Below are positions 27,308-52,091 of a stretch of 64,000 bases of DNA, piece after piece. Below the pieces are notes generated by a model. The model did not search any database and was not told the origin of the DNA. It was given only the letters and a program-made list of their open reading frames with translations. This DNA comes from an uncultured Oribacterium sp. (GTDB lineage Bacteria > Bacillota > Clostridia > Lachnospirales > Lachnospiraceae). The stretch lies in the NCBI GenBank assembly GCA_946413525.1, contig CAMKKZ010000010.1, forward strand, positions 62,001 through 126,000. The letters are read 5' to 3'. The position numbers and the translations under genes were made by a program. Numbering within the stretch: position 1 is the stretch's first letter; the number at the start of each line of letters is the position of its first letter.

Positions 27308-27436
27308 CGCCAGTCCTCACATAAACTCTGCAACATTAGATAACGATTCGCAACTGTCCGGCTCGTCCGGACAATTACAATGATTCAGCATCCCCTGATA
27401 TTCAAGGGCGGACAAGGCGCTGAATGGCCCCTTTTT
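27308..27436. other. Gap between pilM and the prepilin peptidase gene, left part
   Basis: No gene seen. Apart from the mobile repeat at 27437-27571 the 302-bp gap holds only a short CCGGCTCGTCCGG palindrome near 27359. A pilin gene, which might be expected at this place, is not present. Confidence 0.55.
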
Positions 27437-27571
27437 GTAACTATTCAGTTAGCACCTCGCGCTTGCCGCGAGGTGCGTATGAAAGCGTCGAAAAGCCTGC
27501 CTCGGGCGTACTCGGAATGCGCGTAAGCGCCACGCCCGAGGCGTAACTGTTCAGCTTGACTGAACAGTTAC
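27437..27571. mobile_element. 135-bp non-autonomous element with GTAA ends, copy 1
   Basis: The ends are inverted repeats GTAACTATTCAG and CTGAACAGTTAC, and the element is flanked by a perfect 8-bp direct repeat CCCTTTTT (27429-27436 and 27572-27579). Inside are a CCTCGCGCTTGCCGCGAGG hairpin and a GCCTCGGGCGT/ACGCCCGAGGC stem. Nothing is encoded. GTAA termini plus 8-bp target duplications are features of the IS66 family, so it may be a MITE moved by an IS66 transposase (inference). Confidence 0.8.
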
Positions 27572-37690: not shown

Positions 37691-38101
37691 TTCTTTTGCC
37701 AGATATTCAAGCAGTTCATCCTTTGATAACCATGAAAAGTCAAAACTCAGCTCATCCCCGTGAAAAAAGAAAACCAGGAATTTCCCCCTGTGTTCCCTCT
37801 CCAAACCATATGCCTTGATTGACAATCTGCGAAGGCCATTGGGCTGCATGTTTCCTACATCTACAAACTTTTTATGCTCCGCATCATAAGCCATGACCGC
37901 GTGGCCATCAAAATCTATCAAATGCAGCGTGGCCAGATCTGAAGCAGCGTTCTCAAACTCCATGTCAAGGTACTGGGAAGTACGCGGCTTGTAATTGGAA
38001 ATATGCGGTAGAGCAATCAAGATCAACATGGTGGCGATGCAAATTATAAGAAGAACGACGATTGAAAGGATGCCTGCATCCGTCTTCAGCCGATAACCCA
38101 T
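37682..38101 (-). CDS. Small single-pass membrane protein, unknown function
   Basis: A 139-residue protein with a short positive N-terminus, one hydrophobic segment (ILSIVVLLIICIATMLILIAL, about 11-31) and a soluble domain of about 100 residues. The soluble part contains ENAASDLATLH and AVMAYDAEHKKFVDV. The layout resembles a pilin-like or pseudopilin protein, but there is no clear prepilin cleavage site (no Gly followed by a Phe-rich helix with Glu5), so I do not assign it. It has its own predicted promoter and precedes the subtilase by about 90 bases. Confidence 0.7.
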   Translation of the reverse strand: MGYRLKTDAGILSIVVLLIICIATMLILIALPHISNYKPRTSQYLDMEFENAASDLATLHLIDFDGHAVMAYDAEHKKFVDVGNMQPNGLRRLSIKAYGLEREHRGKFLVFFFHGDELSFDFSWLSKDELLEYLAKENE

Positions 38102-38173
38102 AATTCTTCACCCATTTTTAAACGTTCAGAAGCCTTTGTCAGGGATCCAAAAGTCATAATTATAGATAATGAC

Positions 38174-38202
38174 AGTATACCTTTAGTCCTTTTGTTTTTC
38201 AA
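38174..38202 (-). promoter_or_regulatory. Predicted promoter for the small membrane protein
   Basis: On the minus strand TTGAAA (38197-38202), a 17-base spacer and TATACT (38174-38179), ending about 70 bases before the start codon. It may also serve the subtilase gene. Confidence 0.6.
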
Positions 38203-38280
38203 TAGCCATCCTCCAAAATCATCAAAAAAGAGCCGGCAGCTGCACTGTCAGCCCTTATTGGCGATTCTCATTTTCGGATT

Positions 38281-38505
38281 TTCACTTTCTTCCCCGTGAA
38301 GACCAGGGAACAGACGGATGACTCCACAAAAGGACTTCTGTGCGTACTTCTCACCCGTTCTGTCCAGGGAGCAGACTTTCTAACCCCTGCTAGAGAGAAT
38401 CGTTATCGCTTCTCCCCCCTGCTGTCCAGGGAGCAGACGGATGGGCACGGGCAAAGTGCTTGTCCATACAGTTCTTCTCCGTGCCGTCCAGAGATCAAGC
38501 GTTTC
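38281..38505. repeat. Degenerate 60-bp repeats in the gap after the ATPase-LDH fusion
   Basis: Four imperfect copies of a unit with the core GTCCAGGGAGCAGACGGATG occur at about 38306, 38365, 38422 and 38486. Spacers between cores differ in length and the cores diverge, so this is not a CRISPR array. No gene is visible. Confidence 0.6.
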
Positions 38506-38509
38506 CTTA

Positions 38510-38588
38510 GTTCAGTCTGACCATGTCAATCAGCAGTTCGGTCTGACCATGTCAATCAGCAGTTCGGTCTGACCATGTCAATCAGCGC
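38510..38588. repeat. Three 26-bp tandem copies at the end of the fusion gene
   Basis: Three nearly identical copies of a 26-bp unit (core TCTGACCATGTCAATCAGCA) abut each other and end next to the stop codon of the ATPase-LDH fusion. Confidence 0.85.
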
Positions 38589-38590
38589 GT

Positions 38591-39997
38591 TCAGAAGCAC
38601 CTCTCTTTTCTTTCCCTTCTGCATTCTTCGATTTTGCCACAGCGATAACACAGTTCATTGTTGCAAATACCATCATTCGTGAAATACGAACAGATATTGT
38701 CCACGGTAGTCTCGGCGATATTATTCAAGGCTTCCTCCGTCAGGAAGGCCTGGTGTGATGTCACGATGACATTCGGCATGGAAATAAGGCGTGACAGGAG
38801 TTCGTCATTCAGGATGTGCCCGGAACGATCTTCAAAGAAAATATCCGCCTCCTCCTCATACACGTCAAGGCACGCCGCCCCGATTTTCCGCTGCCGAATG
38901 CCGTTTAATAATGCTTCCGCGTCAATCAGGCCACCTCTTGAAGTATTAAGAATGACCAGCAGCGCGAGTACATCGTCCCTTGTCCTGAAGCTTTCAAGGT
39001 CATTCTGGAAACGGGATGTATTCACCAAAGCCTCCTCACCGATAATCAGCCCGGCAACCGTCTCCTGAAGACCGTCAAAATCCAAACTTATGTAATCCGT
39101 CAGTGCCTCCTGAGCCGAGGTTTTTCCCCAGAAAGAACGGCAGACCCCCTCGCTGCAAGCCCTCATCAACGAATAGGGATTATAAATTCCATTTCGTCCG
39201 GAAAGAGTGTAGCCATCATACCAGGATCTGAGCTCCTCAAAATCCATCCCGTTTTTCACGCAAAGTCTTCTGGCCTCCTCTTCCGTAAATCCGGCGTATT
39301 CCACAAACTCTCCCGGATGAAGCATGGTATATTCATCAAAATCGGAAATGGCCGACTGCGTGCCATCCTTCCTGATCGGAAGGATTCCCGTCATATAAGC
39401 TGCTGCCACGACCCTCGGTGTGAAATTGCCGTTCTTGAACCATCCCCTGAGCAGGTTCAGGTAGGCATCCTGTGCCTCTTTGTCACGTTTCGCCTCCCGG
39501 ATTACGGCATCCCACTCATCGATAAGGAAAATGAATGGCTTGCCATCCTGCCGCTCCGTACAATGAATAAGAAAGTCATTTAAGCTGCAACCCGCCGGAG
39601 GAGCAAAACCCATGGCGGATAAATCCCTCCAGATCGCGCCTTCAATCATGGCGGGAATATCCTTCATCGAGCCATTATGTTTCTTGATATCTGAGGTGAA
39701 AGCGGTAATGTCGATGGAAATGACATTATAGCTGTTCATATACTCTCTGTAATCCCCGCTTCCGGCAATGGCCATGTCCCTGAACAATCCATAAGAATCA
39801 CAGGAACAGTCATAAAAAGCCGTGAGCATCCTGACCGCGTAAGACTTCCCGAAACGGCGCGGCCGACTGACACAGACCAGCTTATTCCTCCGGCTGATTC
39901 TCCGATTAATGAGCTCTGCCAGGCCTGTTTTGTCCACGTAATCCGCATCCGCAATCTCAGCAAAAGCCCTGTTACCCAGATTTACATAAATCCCCAT
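38591..39997 (-). CDS. Chimeric protein: AAA-ATPase N-terminus fused to the C-terminal part of D-lactate dehydrogenase
   Basis: Residues 1 to about 348 match the AAA-ATPase family whose full-length relative is encoded at 44805-46472: VDKTGLAELINRRI, Walker-like SRPRRFGKS (about 43-51), FLIDEWDAV (Walker B-type), and the WYDGY motif (about 258-262). At LLVILNTSRGG the protein switches to a fermentative D-lactate dehydrogenase (LdhA) C-terminus: NTSRGGLIDAEALLNGIRQ, KIGAACLDVYEEEADIFFED and VTSHQAFLTEEALNNIAETT, which includes the catalytic His. The ATPase has lost its PD-(D/E)XK nuclease domain, and the dehydrogenase has lost its N-terminal substrate domain and the first part of the Rossmann fold. 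Neither activity should be complete. The tail NNELCYRCGKIEECRRERKE is Cys-rich. The frame is fully open for 468 residues. Confidence 0.85.
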   Translation of the reverse strand: MGIYVNLGNRAFAEIADADYVDKTGLAELINRRISRRNKLVCVSRPRRFGKSYAVRMLTAFYDCSCDSYGLFRDMAIAGSGDYREYMNSYNVISIDITAFTSDIKKHNGSMKDIPAMIEGAIWRDLSAMGFAPPAGCSLNDFLIHCTERQDGKPFIFLIDEWDAVIREAKRDKEAQDAYLNLLRGWFKNGNFTPRVVAAAYMTGILPIRKDGTQSAISDFDEYTMLHPGEFVEYAGFTEEEARRLCVKNGMDFEELRSWYDGYTLSGRNGIYNPYSLMRACSEGVCRSFWGKTSAQEALTDYISLDFDGLQETVAGLIIGEEALVNTSRFQNDLESFRTRDDVLALLVILNTSRGGLIDAEALLNGIRQRKIGAACLDVYEEEADIFFEDRSGHILNDELLSRLISMPNVIVTSHQAFLTEEALNNIAETTVDNICSYFTNDGICNNELCYRCGKIEECRRERKERCF

Positions 39998-40112
39998 TCA
40001 AGCCCTCTTTCCTTGATTTCACGCCCCCGGAGCCCCCTGTCCATCATGACCGGCGATTTCGGTGAGAAGTCATCCATCTCCAGATATTCCAGTCCTATAA
40101 GAGAAAAAATAT
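39998..40112. other. Gap upstream of the fusion gene
   Basis: The 507-bp gap from 39998 to 40504 holds two mobile repeats (40113-40306 and 40316-40450). The rest, including this part, shows no gene. Confidence 0.5.
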
Positions 40113-40306
40113 CCACCTGTACGGTTGAATGGCCTAAAGGCCATTCTGAATACCCCTAAATTCGCAAAACCGCCCGCTTCGCGTGCTTAAAGATTTGCTT
40201 CGCAAATCGTTTTGCTCATTTAGGGGTAGGTTGCTCATCCAAAGCGATATTTTGATTACGGTAAACCGTATCAAAATATCGCTTTGGATGGCAACCGTAC
40301 AGGTGG
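40113..40306. mobile_element. 194-bp palindromic MITE, copy 1
   Basis: Perfect 15-bp terminal inverted repeats CCACCTGTACGGTTG / CAACCGTACAGGTGG bound the element, and an 8-bp direct repeat AAAAATAT flanks it (40105-40112 and 40307-40314). Inside, two long stems can form: ACCCCTAAAT with its partner around a GC-rich loop, and CATCCAAAGCGATATTTTGA with its complement. It encodes no protein. A same-length copy in inverse orientation is at 51865-52058. Confidence 0.9.
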
Positions 40307-40315
40307 AAAAATATT

Positions 40316-40450
40316 GTGAATATTCAGTTAGCACCTCGCGCTTGCCGCGAGCTGCGTATGAAAGCGTTGAAAAGCACGCCTCGGGCGTACTAGGAATGCA
40401 CGTAAGCGCCACATCCGAGGCGTAACTGTTCAGCTTGACTGAACAGTTAC
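40316..40450. mobile_element. 135-bp non-autonomous element with GTAA ends, copy 2
   Basis: About 90% identical to 27437-27571 and of the same length. The right end CTGAACAGTTAC is intact; the left end has diverged (GTGAATATTCAG). It begins two bases after the target duplication of the neighbouring MITE. No clean flanking duplication is left, so it is probably older than copy 1. Confidence 0.75.
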
Positions 40451-40504
40451 GAAATTATTGAAATTGAGTATCCATTTTCACCCAGTTCCCGGTTCAACAG
40501 TACA

Positions 40505-41188
40505 TCATTCATGGGATTCCTTCTCCCCCTGACCTTCATCTTCCGTGCTGCCGCTTTCCATGTTCCTCCGAAAAGCGGGCAGGAGTATCAGCGCGTTCAT
40601 ATAGGTCATGGAAGGAAGCCCGAGAAGAAAGATAAGGGGTGAAAAAAATGGCATGATATAAAGCCCTGCAAGGAACAAAAGGGCAAAGGCCGCATCCATA
40701 ACAAGGATCAATATCGTCCTCCCAAGGCAGCGAAGGGAAAGGAAGGCGGAATTCATCAGCGTCCTGGCGATGGTGTTCTCATACCTTGAAAGCAGCGGCC
40801 ATACATAGAGGAACACAAAGCCCCACAGCAAAATGAAGGCGCCGGTCACGGACAACAGAGCGATCCGAATGCCGGACCCCGCCGGGAAGGCCTTGCTGAA
40901 ATAATAAAAATCAAAGGTAAACAGCCCCCCCAGGAGGAAAAGGATGAGCCAAATGACGGTGGCCTGGCGGAAGTTCTGCCGGAAGCTCTTGAAAAACATG
41001 CGGATCATACCATTATCCTCATCCAGGATGATCTTTATCATGCAGTAATAGAGGGCCGTCGTGGACGCCCCGAAACTTATGACCGGAAGGCTGCAAAGCA
41101 TCCAGAGGAAATTCAAAAGCATGAGATCCCCCAGGCGGCCCATGAAGCGCCAGAAGGGGCTGTCATAATTAAACATGGAACGGAACAT
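40505..41188 (-). CDS. YesL-family (DUF624) membrane protein
   Basis: A 227-residue polytopic protein with the family start FNYDSPFWRFMGRLGDLMLLN (in parts) and the LWMLCSLPVISFGASTTALYY segment typical of YesL. Five to six hydrophobic segments are visible. The start at 41188 has GGAGG seven bases upstream. YesL proteins often accompany carbohydrate ABC transporters; here there is none, and the upstream gene is a BCCT transporter 145 bp away. The role is unknown. Confidence 0.88.
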   Translation of the reverse strand: MFRSMFNYDSPFWRFMGRLGDLMLLNFLWMLCSLPVISFGASTTALYYCMIKIILDEDNGMIRMFFKSFRQNFRQATVIWLILFLLGGLFTFDFYYFSKAFPAGSGIRIALLSVTGAFILLWGFVFLYVWPLLSRYENTIARTLMNSAFLSLRCLGRTILILVMDAAFALLFLAGLYIMPFFSPLIFLLGLPSMTYMNALILLPAFRRNMESGSTEDEGQGEKESHE

Positions 41189-41333
41189 ATCCTCACCTCC
41201 AAATTGTCCTTCCGCCCGGCCCCTCAACGGCTGGCTTTTCAGGCGGCGCAGGAGCCATCGCCGTGTATGCCTTCCGCCTGGCCAACTGTCAAAGGATCAA
41301 TCCCCGCGGCTCCAGGGCACAGGCCTTGCCGCG

Positions 41334-43193
41334 TCACCCTTCCCCATAGGCCCTTTCCCAGTTTTCAATCAGATTCTCAATGGCATCGTCCGACATGGAG
41401 TCTGACATGTCCAAATCTTCTTTTTTTCCGGCATCATCCGACCTGCTGACAGCCGCCGCTTTCCCTGCAGCATCTGTCTTGGAAGAAGCGTTGCTTTCGT
41501 TATCAGCTTTGGAAGAAGCATTGCTTTCATTATCCGCCTTGGAAGAAGCGTTGCTTTCATTATCTGCCTTAAAAGAAGCATTGCTTTCATTATCCGCCTT
41601 GGAAGAAGCAACTGGCCCGCCCACATGACCGACTTTTTCCAGGTCGTCGCCCTCTCCCTCTTTTTCAAGATACTGCCCCGCATCCTTCAAGAAGCTGGCC
41701 ACGATGAGCAGCATGACGAAGCCTATGGGGAAGGCGGCGATAATGGAGACGGACTGGAGGTTCGCCATCGAGCTCTCCGAAAAGACCAGCGCCACGGGCA
41801 GGAGGATCAGAAGCACGGACCAGAAAGCCTTGACCCCTGCGGCAGGCTCCTCATCCTCTGCCAGATCCTGATAAGTATATTGGGATGCCACCAGCGCGAT
41901 GGAATCAAAGGATGTGGCATAAAACGCGATCATGGACAAAGACATGACCAGAAGGACCAGGGAGGAAAGAGGCAGCGTCCGTAAGATTGCTATGATGGTT
42001 TCATACATATTCCCAGCCGCATGATAAATCCCCACAACGTCCAGCTTTCCGAGAACCTGAAGCCCCAAGCCGTAATTCCCAAGGACAATGAAGCTGATGA
42101 CCGTGCTTCCCATGCCGAAGACATAGCCTCCCAGAATCGTCTGGCGGACCGTCCTCCCCCGGGAAATGCTGCCAATGAAGAAGGGCGCGGCAACGCACCA
42201 GACCATCCAGTAGGCCCAGAAGAAAATCGTCCAGTTCTGGGCGAAGCCCGTTTCCCTGAGGGGATCCGTATAAGTGGCCAGGGTGAAGAAGTTCTGGCAG
42301 AGCCTCCCCAGCGCCGAAAAGCCCGTGTCAAGGATATACCGCGCCTCGCCGCCGAAAAGCAGCACGTAGGCAAGGAGCCCGTAAAAAAGGTAGGTGCAGG
42401 CATTGGCTAGGATGGAGACGCCCCGCATCCCCTTCATGACGGAATAAGTATAGATCAGGCATGTGACGATGAGGATCAGCACGGTCAGGGCGCGCTCAGA
42501 CATAGGAATGTTGAAAAGCGTCCGGAACACTTCCGCAAGAAGCGGCGTAGCGACGGAAAAAGTGGTCGCGGTCCCGGCCAGAAGGGCGAACACAGCCAGG
42601 AGGTCCACAAGCCTCCCGGCAAACCCCTCCGTCCCTTTTCCCAAAAGCGGCCGACAGGCCTCGGAATATTTCTGACGGCTCCGCTTCCGGACATGGAGCA
42701 TGAAGCCGAACGCCACGGCCAGCACAAGGTAAAAGGCCCAGGGGATCGGCCCCCAATGGAAAAGGGTAAACGTGCTTGCCCAGTCCTGCACCGGGCCCAT
42801 GCCCAGCACCCGGGGTTCCTCCGCATAGGAAATCCATTCGCAGAGGGAGTAGAAAAGGATGTCCGCGGCAAGGCCTGCCGTAAACATCATGGAACCCCAA
42901 GAAAAGAAACTGTACTTCGGCTTCTCTTCCCTCCCCCCAAGCCTGATTTCCCCGAACCGGGAAAAGCAGAGGAAAAGGGAAAGCAGGAAGAAGAACAGCC
43001 CAATCACAAGGTAATAAAGCCCGAACGCATCCCCAAGGAAGCTCCTGACCGCAGAAAGGACTTCATTGGATCTGTCCGGCTGCAGAAAAAAGAAGAAGCA
43101 CATAAAGAGGATCAGGAGAAATGGCAGCAACGTGACAAAAAAATCAATACGCTTATTATCGGATTCGAATGGTTGAAAGTGTTTTTTGTTCAT
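41334..43193 (-). CDS. BCCT-family betaine/carnitine/choline transporter with a repeat tail
   Basis: A 619-residue transporter of the betaine-choline-carnitine family. The substrate-site helix is recognisable (FWAYWMVWCVAAPFFIGSIS, then RGRTVRQTILGG, about 310-345). About twelve membrane helices can be traced. The start at 43193 has GGAG seven bases upstream and a strong promoter. It likely imports a quaternary ammonium compound for osmoprotection or methylamine metabolism; substrate is not predictable. The cytosolic C-terminal tail of about 110 residues contains five copies of a ten-residue repeat (SSKADNESNA) and ends in an acidic segment. Such tails act as osmosensors in some BCCT carriers; here the repeats make that uncertain. 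Confidence 0.92.
   Translation of the reverse strand: MNKKHFQPFESDNKRIDFFVTLLPFLLILFMCFFFFLQPDRSNEVLSAVRSFLGDAFGLYYLVIGLFFFLLSLFLCFSRFGEIRLGGREEKPKYSFFSWGSMMFTAGLAADILFYSLCEWISYAEEPRVLGMGPVQDWASTFTLFHWGPIPWAFYLVLAVAFGFMLHVRKRSRQKYSEACRPLLGKGTEGFAGRLVDLLAVFALLAGTATTFSVATPLLAEVFRTLFNIPMSERALTVLILIVTCLIYTYSVMKGMRGVSILANACTYLFYGLLAYVLLFGGEARYILDTGFSALGRLCQNFFTLATYTDPLRETGFAQNWTIFFWAYWMVWCVAAPFFIGSISRGRTVRQTILGGYVFGMGSTVISFIVLGNYGLGLQVLGKLDVVGIYHAAGNMYETIIAILRTLPLSSLVLLVMSLSMIAFYATSFDSIALVASQYTYQDLAEDEEPAAGVKAFWSVLLILLPVALVFSESSMANLQSVSIIAAFPIGFVMLLIVASFLKDAGQYLEKEGEGDDLEKVGHVGGPVASSKADNESNASFKADNESNASSKADNESNASSKADNESNASSKTDAAGKAAAVSRSDDAGKKEDLDMSDSMSDDAIENLIENWERAYGEG
41475..41612 (-). repeat. 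30-bp coding minisatellite in the BCCT gene
   Basis: Five direct copies of a 30-bp unit encode SSKADNESNA-type decapeptides in the transporter's C-terminal tail. Unit length keeps the frame. Confidence 0.85.
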
Positions 43194-43222
43194 TTTTGCA
43201 CTCCTTAACTTGATTTTTGAAC

Positions 43223-43251
43223 AATATAACACTCATCTCATCCCATGTCAA
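43223..43251 (-). promoter_or_regulatory. Strong sigma-A promoter for the BCCT transporter
   Basis: On the minus strand a perfect -35 TTGACA (43246-43251), a 17-base spacer and TATATT (43223-43228). The start codon follows about 30 bases after the -10, giving a very short leader. Confidence 0.75.
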
Positions 43252-44804: not shown

Positions 44805-46472
44805 TCATTTCAGTTTGAGCCTGACCTTCTTCTGGAAGAATGCCGCCCCATAGCAGATTATTTCCTCATATCCTTTCAACCCTTCGGCGTATTTTTCCTT
44901 ATTAATCTGTTTGATTGCTTCCTGGCAATCCCTGTCCATATCCGATTCCTTATCCGACTTTTTCGCTTCTATGATGATCGCGCGTCTTTTTTTCCTGTCC
45001 TTAAGCAGGATATCCGGCCTTCCAAGCCCTTTCTCCTTGTTGGAATCAACGCTGTATCCTCTTCCGACAAACACCCCGGCGAGAAACGCGTGATAGTAGT
45101 CCTCGTGATAATCGTTATAGCTGATCGTATCCCACAGAAGTCCCGAGATGATCTCCGTGGCGCGGTCTTCTCTCTTTTCCCAGAGAGCATTGAACAATTC
45201 CCTTACCGTTTCATCACTTACAGTGTCCGTGAAGAAACGGACTACGGCCTCCTCAAATATTGACGAAATCTCCTTGTTGGGGATCTTTAACGAAACCCTC
45301 TCCCCTTCTTCCTCCGCGTCCGCTTTCGTAATGTATCCCGTCATCAGAAGCACGCTCCACAGGTTATCCTCCGTAAAGTGCAGCGTGTCATAGGTTAGTT
45401 CATCTGAAATCGTCTGCACGATGGTCCCGCCGTTCAGCAAGGTCTCGAACTTGTCAGAAACGTCAAAGTCTGTGCGTTTTACAAAATTAAGAAGGATTCC
45501 GTTGTGACTGGTATTTTTCCAGTAATTCTTAGGCTTGGCGTCTCTTCGTTTCCTAAGCGCGGAAAGGTAGCTGATCACATCCCAGGGACAATATACATGG
45601 CTGTTGCCAAAAACATACCCGTCATACCACTCCCTGATCGTTTCAGCCATCTCCGTTCTGTCTGCCGCTTCAAGAATGGCATCAATCTCCTTCTTTGAAA
45701 ACCCAAAATACTGTGAAAAATCTTCATCAAGTACTGAATACGACGCGAAATTATTCGTACCGGTAAAAATGCTTTCTTTGGCAATCCGAAGACATCCCGT
45801 AATAACGGCAAACTTCAAGAATTCATTATCCTTAAGGGCCGTGCTCAAAATCCCCTTAATAACATCCAGCATTTTGGAATAATAATCATTCTTCGCGCTA
45901 TTCTTTTCGCTCGCCCTTGCCAGAGGGACATCGTACTCATCGATTAAGAGGATGACTTTCTTTCCATATATGGCGTTCATCATACGCATGATTGTCTTAA
46001 GCGAATTTTTTACATCTGCGTATGTGCTTTTCCCTGACTGAAATCTTTCAAAGGTCTCCCTGTCATATTTGTTTGCCTGTTCAACGCCCAACAAATCTGA
46101 TAATTCCTTGCTAATATCTGCAAGCCGGACCTTGAGCATTTCATATGCGCCTTCAAAGCTTTCTCCTTCAACATCCTTAAAGGAAACAAACAGCACCGGA
46201 TACTGATTCATCCACTCCCTGCAAAAATCATTATGTTCCGTTATGGCAAGCCCCTCAAATATGCTCTCGCTGTTCTTTCGTATGCTGAAGAAGTTTTCCA
46301 ACATGCTCATCATGAGTGTTTTCCCAAACCTGCGGGGCCTGGTAAAGAGAGTGACCTCGTTATCCATATCGTTAACAAGTTCATAAATCAGTTCCGTCTT
46401 ATCAACATAGTAATCACCCGATTCTCTGAGCGCCGCAAAATCAGATTTTCCAACACCCACCTTGAAACCCAT
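44805..46472 (-). CDS. AAA-ATPase with C-terminal PD-(D/E)XK nuclease domain
   Basis: A 555-residue protein of the AAA-ATPase-like/DUF1703 family that is expanded in Clostridia and Bacteroidetes. The N-terminal half has YVDKTELIYELVND, TRPRRFGKTLMMSML (Walker A-like), VILLIDEYDVPL (Walker B) and EWYDGYVFG. The C-terminal half has the nuclease motif GRPDILLKDRKKRRAIIIEAK (in parts: Asp and the E-x-K of the active site, about 490-510). Cellular role is unknown; a mobile or defence function has been suggested for the family. The start has AGGAGG seven bases upstream. It provides the full-length reference for the chimera at 38591-39997. Confidence 0.9.
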   Translation of the reverse strand: MGFKVGVGKSDFAALRESGDYYVDKTELIYELVNDMDNEVTLFTRPRRFGKTLMMSMLENFFSIRKNSESIFEGLAITEHNDFCREWMNQYPVLFVSFKDVEGESFEGAYEMLKVRLADISKELSDLLGVEQANKYDRETFERFQSGKSTYADVKNSLKTIMRMMNAIYGKKVILLIDEYDVPLARASEKNSAKNDYYSKMLDVIKGILSTALKDNEFLKFAVITGCLRIAKESIFTGTNNFASYSVLDEDFSQYFGFSKKEIDAILEAADRTEMAETIREWYDGYVFGNSHVYCPWDVISYLSALRKRRDAKPKNYWKNTSHNGILLNFVKRTDFDVSDKFETLLNGGTIVQTISDELTYDTLHFTEDNLWSVLLMTGYITKADAEEEGERVSLKIPNKEISSIFEEAVVRFFTDTVSDETVRELFNALWEKREDRATEIISGLLWDTISYNDYHEDYYHAFLAGVFVGRGYSVDSNKEKGLGRPDILLKDRKKRRAIIIEAKKSDKESDMDRDCQEAIKQINKEKYAEGLKGYEEIICYGAAFFQKKVRLKLK

Positions 46473-51835: not shown

Positions 51836-51864
51836 GCTTTGCATCCTTGTCCCGCCAATTTTAT

Positions 51865-52058
51865 CCACCTGTACGGTTGCCATCCAAAGCGATATTTTGA
51901 TACGGTTTACCGTAATCAAAATATCGCTTTGGATGAGCAACCTACCCCTAAATGAGCAAAACGATTTGCGAAGCAAATCTTTAAGCACGCGAAGCGGGCG
52001 GTTTTGCGAATTTAGGGGTATTCAGAATGGCCTTTAGGCCATTCAACCGTACAGGTGG
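51865..52058. mobile_element. 194-bp palindromic MITE, copy 2, between rfbG and rfbH
   Basis: Identical in length and nearly identical in sequence to 40113-40306, but inverted. The 15-bp terminal repeats are perfect and the flanking 8-bp duplication AATTTTAT (51857-51864 and 52059-52066) is perfect and different from that of copy 1. It separates rfbG from rfbH inside the operon. Confidence 0.92.
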
Positions 52059-52091
52059 AATTTTATTTCGTATCCTGCCCCTTTGCCGCAT

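Follow-up and report, generated by a model that had tools for sequence, protein, structure and literature searches.

The window analysed here, the whole stretch of 64,000 nucleotides from one contig of an uncultured Oribacterium sp., holds an open reading frame in which the front of an ATPase runs into the end of a D-lactate dehydrogenase (LDH). The question raised by this locus is whether the organism carries such a gene or the assembly has made it and, in the first case, how two genes came to share one frame.

The chimeric reading frame and its joint

The frame lies at 38591..39997 on the minus strand, begins with ATG and has 468 codons, so that the coordinates, strand and length given in the original prediction were correct. 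A plausible ribosome-binding site, AAGGAAAGAGG, was recognised by eye directly 5' of the ATG, while a promoter and terminator scan of 38000-40600 gave nothing beyond consensus matches and no terminator-like site directly after the stop. Residues 1 to ~346 (38957..39997, minus strand) form a DUF1703-type AAA+ ATPase part, identified by PF09820 and by similarity to paralogs. The Pfam match to PF09820 covers residues 9-212 (E 7e-25; 88.4 bits against a cut-off of 26.1), the Walker A (RPRRFGKS) and Walker B (DEWD) motifs are present, and the family resemblance extends past this match to about residue 346. PF08011 (PDDEXK_9) has no Pfam match in the fusion, which therefore lacks the nuclease domain, as had been claimed together with the in-frame chimera itself.

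The remainder (38591..38956, minus strand) is the 3' end of a D-lactate dehydrogenase gene, recognised by Pfam, NCBIfam and blastn and running to its natural stop. PF02826 (2-Hacid_dh_C) matches residues 348-417 (E 3e-12; 46.7 bits against a cut-off of 25.1), only over profile positions 122-178 of 178, and the matches of the NCBIfam D-LDH models mostly begin at ~345-348. Intact LDH relatives have ~345 residues and similarity begins at about residue 221-225 of these; what had been described as the back half of LdhA is actually its last ~121 residues. The NAD-binding GxGxxG half and the N-terminal domain are absent, which amounts to ~220 N-terminal residues, the substrate domain and the NAD motif GTGKIG included. 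The tail keeps the LDH motifs NTSRG (Arg354), DVYEEE (Glu381-383) and SHQAF (His415), whose named residues we take to be the catalytic ones. Identity as VanH was rejected, the best NCBIfam VanH model scoring 78.2 bits, far too low against its cut-off of 540. Both halves thus resemble known families far beyond chance.

The joint had been placed at about 38940-38958, and the place agrees, but its true span is narrower. The blastn rows on the LDH side (87 rows in all) mostly start from the stop (38591) and reach 38956-38958 at most, and only two ATPase rows reach the joint, L107 from 38957 and L105 from 38954, so that it can be set at 38954..38958 on the minus strand. When the DNAs are placed side by side, at most a few bases are common to both sides. 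Three 26-bp tandem copies do follow directly after the stop (38509..38586), as had been noticed, but they are ~370 bp away from the joint and therefore do not mark it; the tandem repeat was rejected as the cause of the join because of the same distance.

Relatives of the two parts

Some match to the fusion is found in 11 of the 17 genus genomes, its own included, and several of them, e.g. G008, G014 and G015, match both halves at separate places; none of the 16 other genus genomes has a place that matches both. A search of genome_contigs confirmed 235 stretches, of which the best 79 loci were kept (11 on the ATPase side and 68 on the LDH side), and the fusion was not seen in these best 79, two LDH loci and one ATPase locus having been viewed residue by residue. 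Among the loci kept, the ATPase-side relatives (L101-L109) are 52-58% identical, and the closest rows matching residues 347-468 are 82-89% identical to the tail. Alignments of some LDH loci to query residues 187-346 were considered as a second fusion, but the two viewed, L112 and L145, are ordinary LDHs with chance similarity. Matches to 575 plasmid records were all below 60% identity, the best, with 45% over residues 1-350, being that to a plasmid of Ruminococcus albus; five records (H2-H6) span at least 80% of the query at 22-25% identity. One scan of viral_contigs found no relatives. The ATPase-LDH pairing was not found by title or abstract start in open-access papers, in agreement with its supposed novelty.

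The LDH tail has matches at E<=0.001 in 293 of 397 family genomes, many of them distant, and this ldhA type was otherwise seen in the genus only in G015, as a 50% relative, and in G008, as a remnant of 18 end residues. The tails of 82-89% identity (within L112-L179) sit in records labelled Clostridia, Lachnospiraceae, Spirochaetales, Treponema, Blautia and others. Tails spread across such differently labelled records suggest transfer or mixed bins, and the LDH gene may have passed between lineages.

The own genome (4.02 Mb in 70 contigs) is put at 93.5% complete. An intact ldhA and an intact ATPase gene mapping to the two halves were sought there, and the outcome did not contradict the prediction. 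The LDH query finds the fusion tail and one distant dehydrogenase on contig C7 (30%), with no LDH front at E<=10. The nuclease-half query gives 17 matches, paralogs or paralog remnants, and no clear orphan half, the exception being an unplaced 59-residue fragment at C3:141871 (41%). This absence of an LDH front and of a clear orphan nuclease half fits a deletion, a rearrangement, or a misjoin whose leftovers were left unbinned.

The ATPase part, in turn, belongs to an expanded family. PF09820 has 50 matches in the own genome, of which, by table count, 37 lie in frames that reach 500 aa and 13 in frames that do not; three of the 13 are at contig ends and one is the fusion. The nearest paralog is on contig C26 (57% over residues 1-350). 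The intact gene at 44805..46472 (minus strand), which had been proposed as the full-length reference, does carry both PF09820 and PF08011 by Pfam, although it is only distantly paralogous to the fusion (27% over 151-391, 41% over 1-96). Low-identity ATPase matches beyond residue 350 occur on C41 and C2 of the own genome and on C2 of G015; the protein on C41, when read, proved to be an ordinary DUF1703 protein. Three remnants with internal deletions are also present: C38 has residues 1-89 followed by 399-529, C6 has 1-86 followed by 458-527, and C15 has 1-100 followed by 252-377; neither of the last two gaps shifts the frame, but C6 meets a stop shortly afterwards. DUF1703 copy number is reported as below 4 in most species and at least 10 in 9.8%, and frequent recombination is described for the Cardinium DUF1703 paralogs (PMC6387759). 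Given the remnants, the 50 matches and the recombination in Cardinium, it is nothing unusual here for these genes to break and join. Defence proteins for which PF09820 is given include RdrA of RADAR, PARIS and Old-tin (PMC10952713), but neither the fusion nor the 44805-46472 paralog matched any family among the PADLOC defence models at E<=0.01.

Neighbourhood and origin of the join

A MITE-like repeat of ~200 bp (family A) lies at 40112..40314, ~115 bp upstream of the start codon of the fusion, and again at 51860-52059. It has ~16-bp terminal inverted repeats (TCCACCTGTACGGTTG), a fold z of -16 and, by eye, flanking A/T-rich direct repeats. The own genome has 33 near-full copies, 28 of them at least 99% identical, and the 16 other genus genomes have no match, so that the copies look like a recent burst. 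A second dispersed repeat of ~140 bp (family B), at ~40307-40452 and 27435-27571, abuts family A and has at least 8 copies elsewhere (87-94%). Recombination through the MITE-like repeats was rejected as the origin of the join, as the joint lies outside any such repeat.

The fusion lies near a DUF624 gene (40505-41227) and a BCCT transporter gene (41334-43232), which occur together in 9 of the 9 loci fetched (9 of the 16 other genus genomes) and are adjacent in 8. A further 24 window genes were tested, none of which is near this pair in those nine loci, so that the ancestral ldhA site was not found, and the nine loci contain no ldhA. The flanks of four ldhA relatives, conversely, hold no relative of the fusion's ATPase; window similarity beyond the ldhA gene was found neither in these four by tblastx nor in the LDH loci by blastn, at the DNA level only. 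With no such ATPase beside ldhA and no ldhA beside BCCT-DUF624 in these loci, no ancestral arrangement was found from which a simple deletion would give the fusion.

The account that we favour, and think probable, is a recent illegitimate join of a DUF1703 ATPase front to the last third of ldhA, with the frame kept by luck. A deletion, or a rearrangement of another kind, would have connected the beginning of one of this genome's numerous DUF1703 ATPase genes with the final third of ldhA, the two sides sharing a few bases at most where they meet. The frame would have been kept across the join by chance, for which the prior in a random join is about 1/3. The event would be the organism's own and not a product of assembly, and it would be of recent date. 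The product, if made from the start of the ATPase gene, would consist of an AAA+ module and a helical linker leading into an incomplete Rossmann/catalytic tail. Neither nuclease nor dehydrogenase activity is expected from the sequence, because the PD-(D/E)XK domain and the NAD-binding half are lacking; folding and ATP binding may be retained by the ATPase module. In favour of this account are the lack of any one place with both halves in the other genomes and loci compared, the lack of an LDH front and of a clear orphan nuclease half in the own genome, the internally deleted copies of the family, the unchanged invariant columns and the pN/pS of the tail, the repeats on either side of the joint, the similar GC3 of the two parts and the recombination reported in Cardinium. 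Against it are the scarcity of this ldhA type in the genus, the missing ancestral arrangement, the rather high median pN of the tail and the breaks of ldhA close to the same residues in other records, which may reflect an assembly effect.

A serious rival, though in our estimate a less likely one, is an assembly or library chimera in which the ATPase gene was joined to an ldhA fragment that belongs to a different part of the genome or to some other organism present in the sample. The fusion is seen in one genome only, and the strongest doubt comes from other records in which ldhA-type genes are broken within ~17 residues of the same place. In L175, a roe deer MAG, such a gene gives way inside the contig to unrelated DNA, at residue 215 of the LDH; a 43% relative on contig C77 of G015 is broken at 211, and contig starts cut ldhA-type genes at 208 (L144) and 221 (G142:C56). 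Other breaks lie elsewhere, at 142 in L135 (contig start) and in G008:C42, which keeps residues 328-345 only, this set of broken records being small and picked by eye. In a comparison of LDH loci, the LDH front is in frame in 68 of 71 (59 by motif and 9 by frames of 345-391 aa), two of the remaining three begin at a contig start and L175 is the one cut inside its contig; such cuts are thus rare but occur in these records. By locus, the ldhA-type breaks ~17 residues or less from that of the fusion are at L175 2027, L180 1430, L144 2 and L183 3, inside contigs or at contig starts.

The own assembly also breaks at repeats, as four of its contigs end inside the MITE-like repeat, but the joint is outside repeats and shares at most a few bases. 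A misjoin within the genome should have left an LDH front and a nuclease half, and at 93.5% completeness there is no front and no clear orphan half, although short leftovers may be unbinned. Repeats of the own genome also flank the joint on both sides (40112 and 51860 for family A, 40307 and 27435 for family B). The two parts agree in GC3 (0.578 and 0.562), and in a contamination check GC3 and codon scores did not set the tail apart from the window genes, both being weak tests, as the LDH relatives span 0.34-0.93.

It had also been suggested that the fusion may be a retained chimera. In that case it would be under selection, and the LDH tail, whose last segment is Cys-rich, would act as a C-terminal module newly gained by the ATPase. 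The open 468-codon frame, its plausible ribosome-binding site and the state of the tail speak in favour. Among 71 tails compared (L071 was dropped for a gap), 63 LDH columns are invariant, and the fusion changes 0 of the 63, with no stop or frameshift; a tail that keeps them all may be young, artefactual or constrained. Its median pN/pS is 0.097 (71 pairs) vs 0.088 for other tails (2465 of 2485 pairs, those with pS above 0.45), of whose pairs 35% reach at least 0.097, so that the fusion is within the spread of intact genes; its median pN is rather high, 61st of 72 in rising order. With synonymous sites near saturation (0.80-0.92 for the nearest LDH tails), pN/pS shows only that nearly all of the tail's history was under constraint. 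The ATPase part, compared without L107 (which starts at residue 22), differs from the family in 8 of 93 columns that are otherwise invariant, the second highest among 13 sequences after the distant L003 (10 of 95), which is a slight hint of looser constraint. In a shallow AlphaFold2 model of the fusion (22 rows), nearly all of residues 287-428 have pLDDT below 50, whereas in a control model of intact LDH (14 rows) the start of the same tail has ~69-77, then 28-52 at its residues 251-300; both models are weak, and the low confidence in the fusion is only a hint. Since only one genome was seen to have the fusion and the cuts fall inside both domains, retention is very unlikely.

About as unlikely is that the ATPase gene moved into ldhA with a mobile element, the tail being the disrupted target: the family is expanded in this genome, has relatives on plasmids and is adjoined here by a fresh MITE-like element, but no LDH front was found across the ATPase or elsewhere in the genome, the breaks seen in other records are some residues apart, which does not suit a single insertion site, and the viral_contigs scan was without a relative. 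A similarly small chance is given to a very young chimeric gene, in which the expanded and recombining DUF1703 family would have picked up the end of a foreign gene and which, if expressed, would gain a new partner or location from its Cys-rich LDH tail.

If the recent join in the organism is real, it offers a clean example of an expanded ATPase/nuclease family decaying by joins that can keep the frame, and annotation pipelines would report such chimeric ORFs as novel domain pairings. Should it stem from the assembly instead, it cautions against taking single-genome domain fusions as biology.

Comparison with known proteins

The DUF1703 proteins (PF09820 plus PF08011) are the closest counterpart of the front part, as the fusion shares with them the N-terminal AAA+ module, the Walker A and Walker B motifs and the sequence up to the helical linker. 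The unusual RPRRFGKS form of Walker A is among the motifs described for the family (PMC1913061). These proteins carry a PD-(D/E)XK nuclease domain, whereas the fusion ends in an LDH tail. With the fermentative D-lactate dehydrogenases and D-isomer 2-hydroxyacid dehydrogenases (PF02826; e.g. PDB 5z20, 5z21 and 1j4a) it has in common the last ~121 residues to the natural stop, but not the first ~220, which hold the substrate domain and the NAD motif GTGKIG. The DUF1703 remnants on C38, C6 and C15 resemble the fusion in that an ATPase front is joined to a distant piece; in them, however, the second piece comes from the same gene family, while in the fusion it comes from ldhA.
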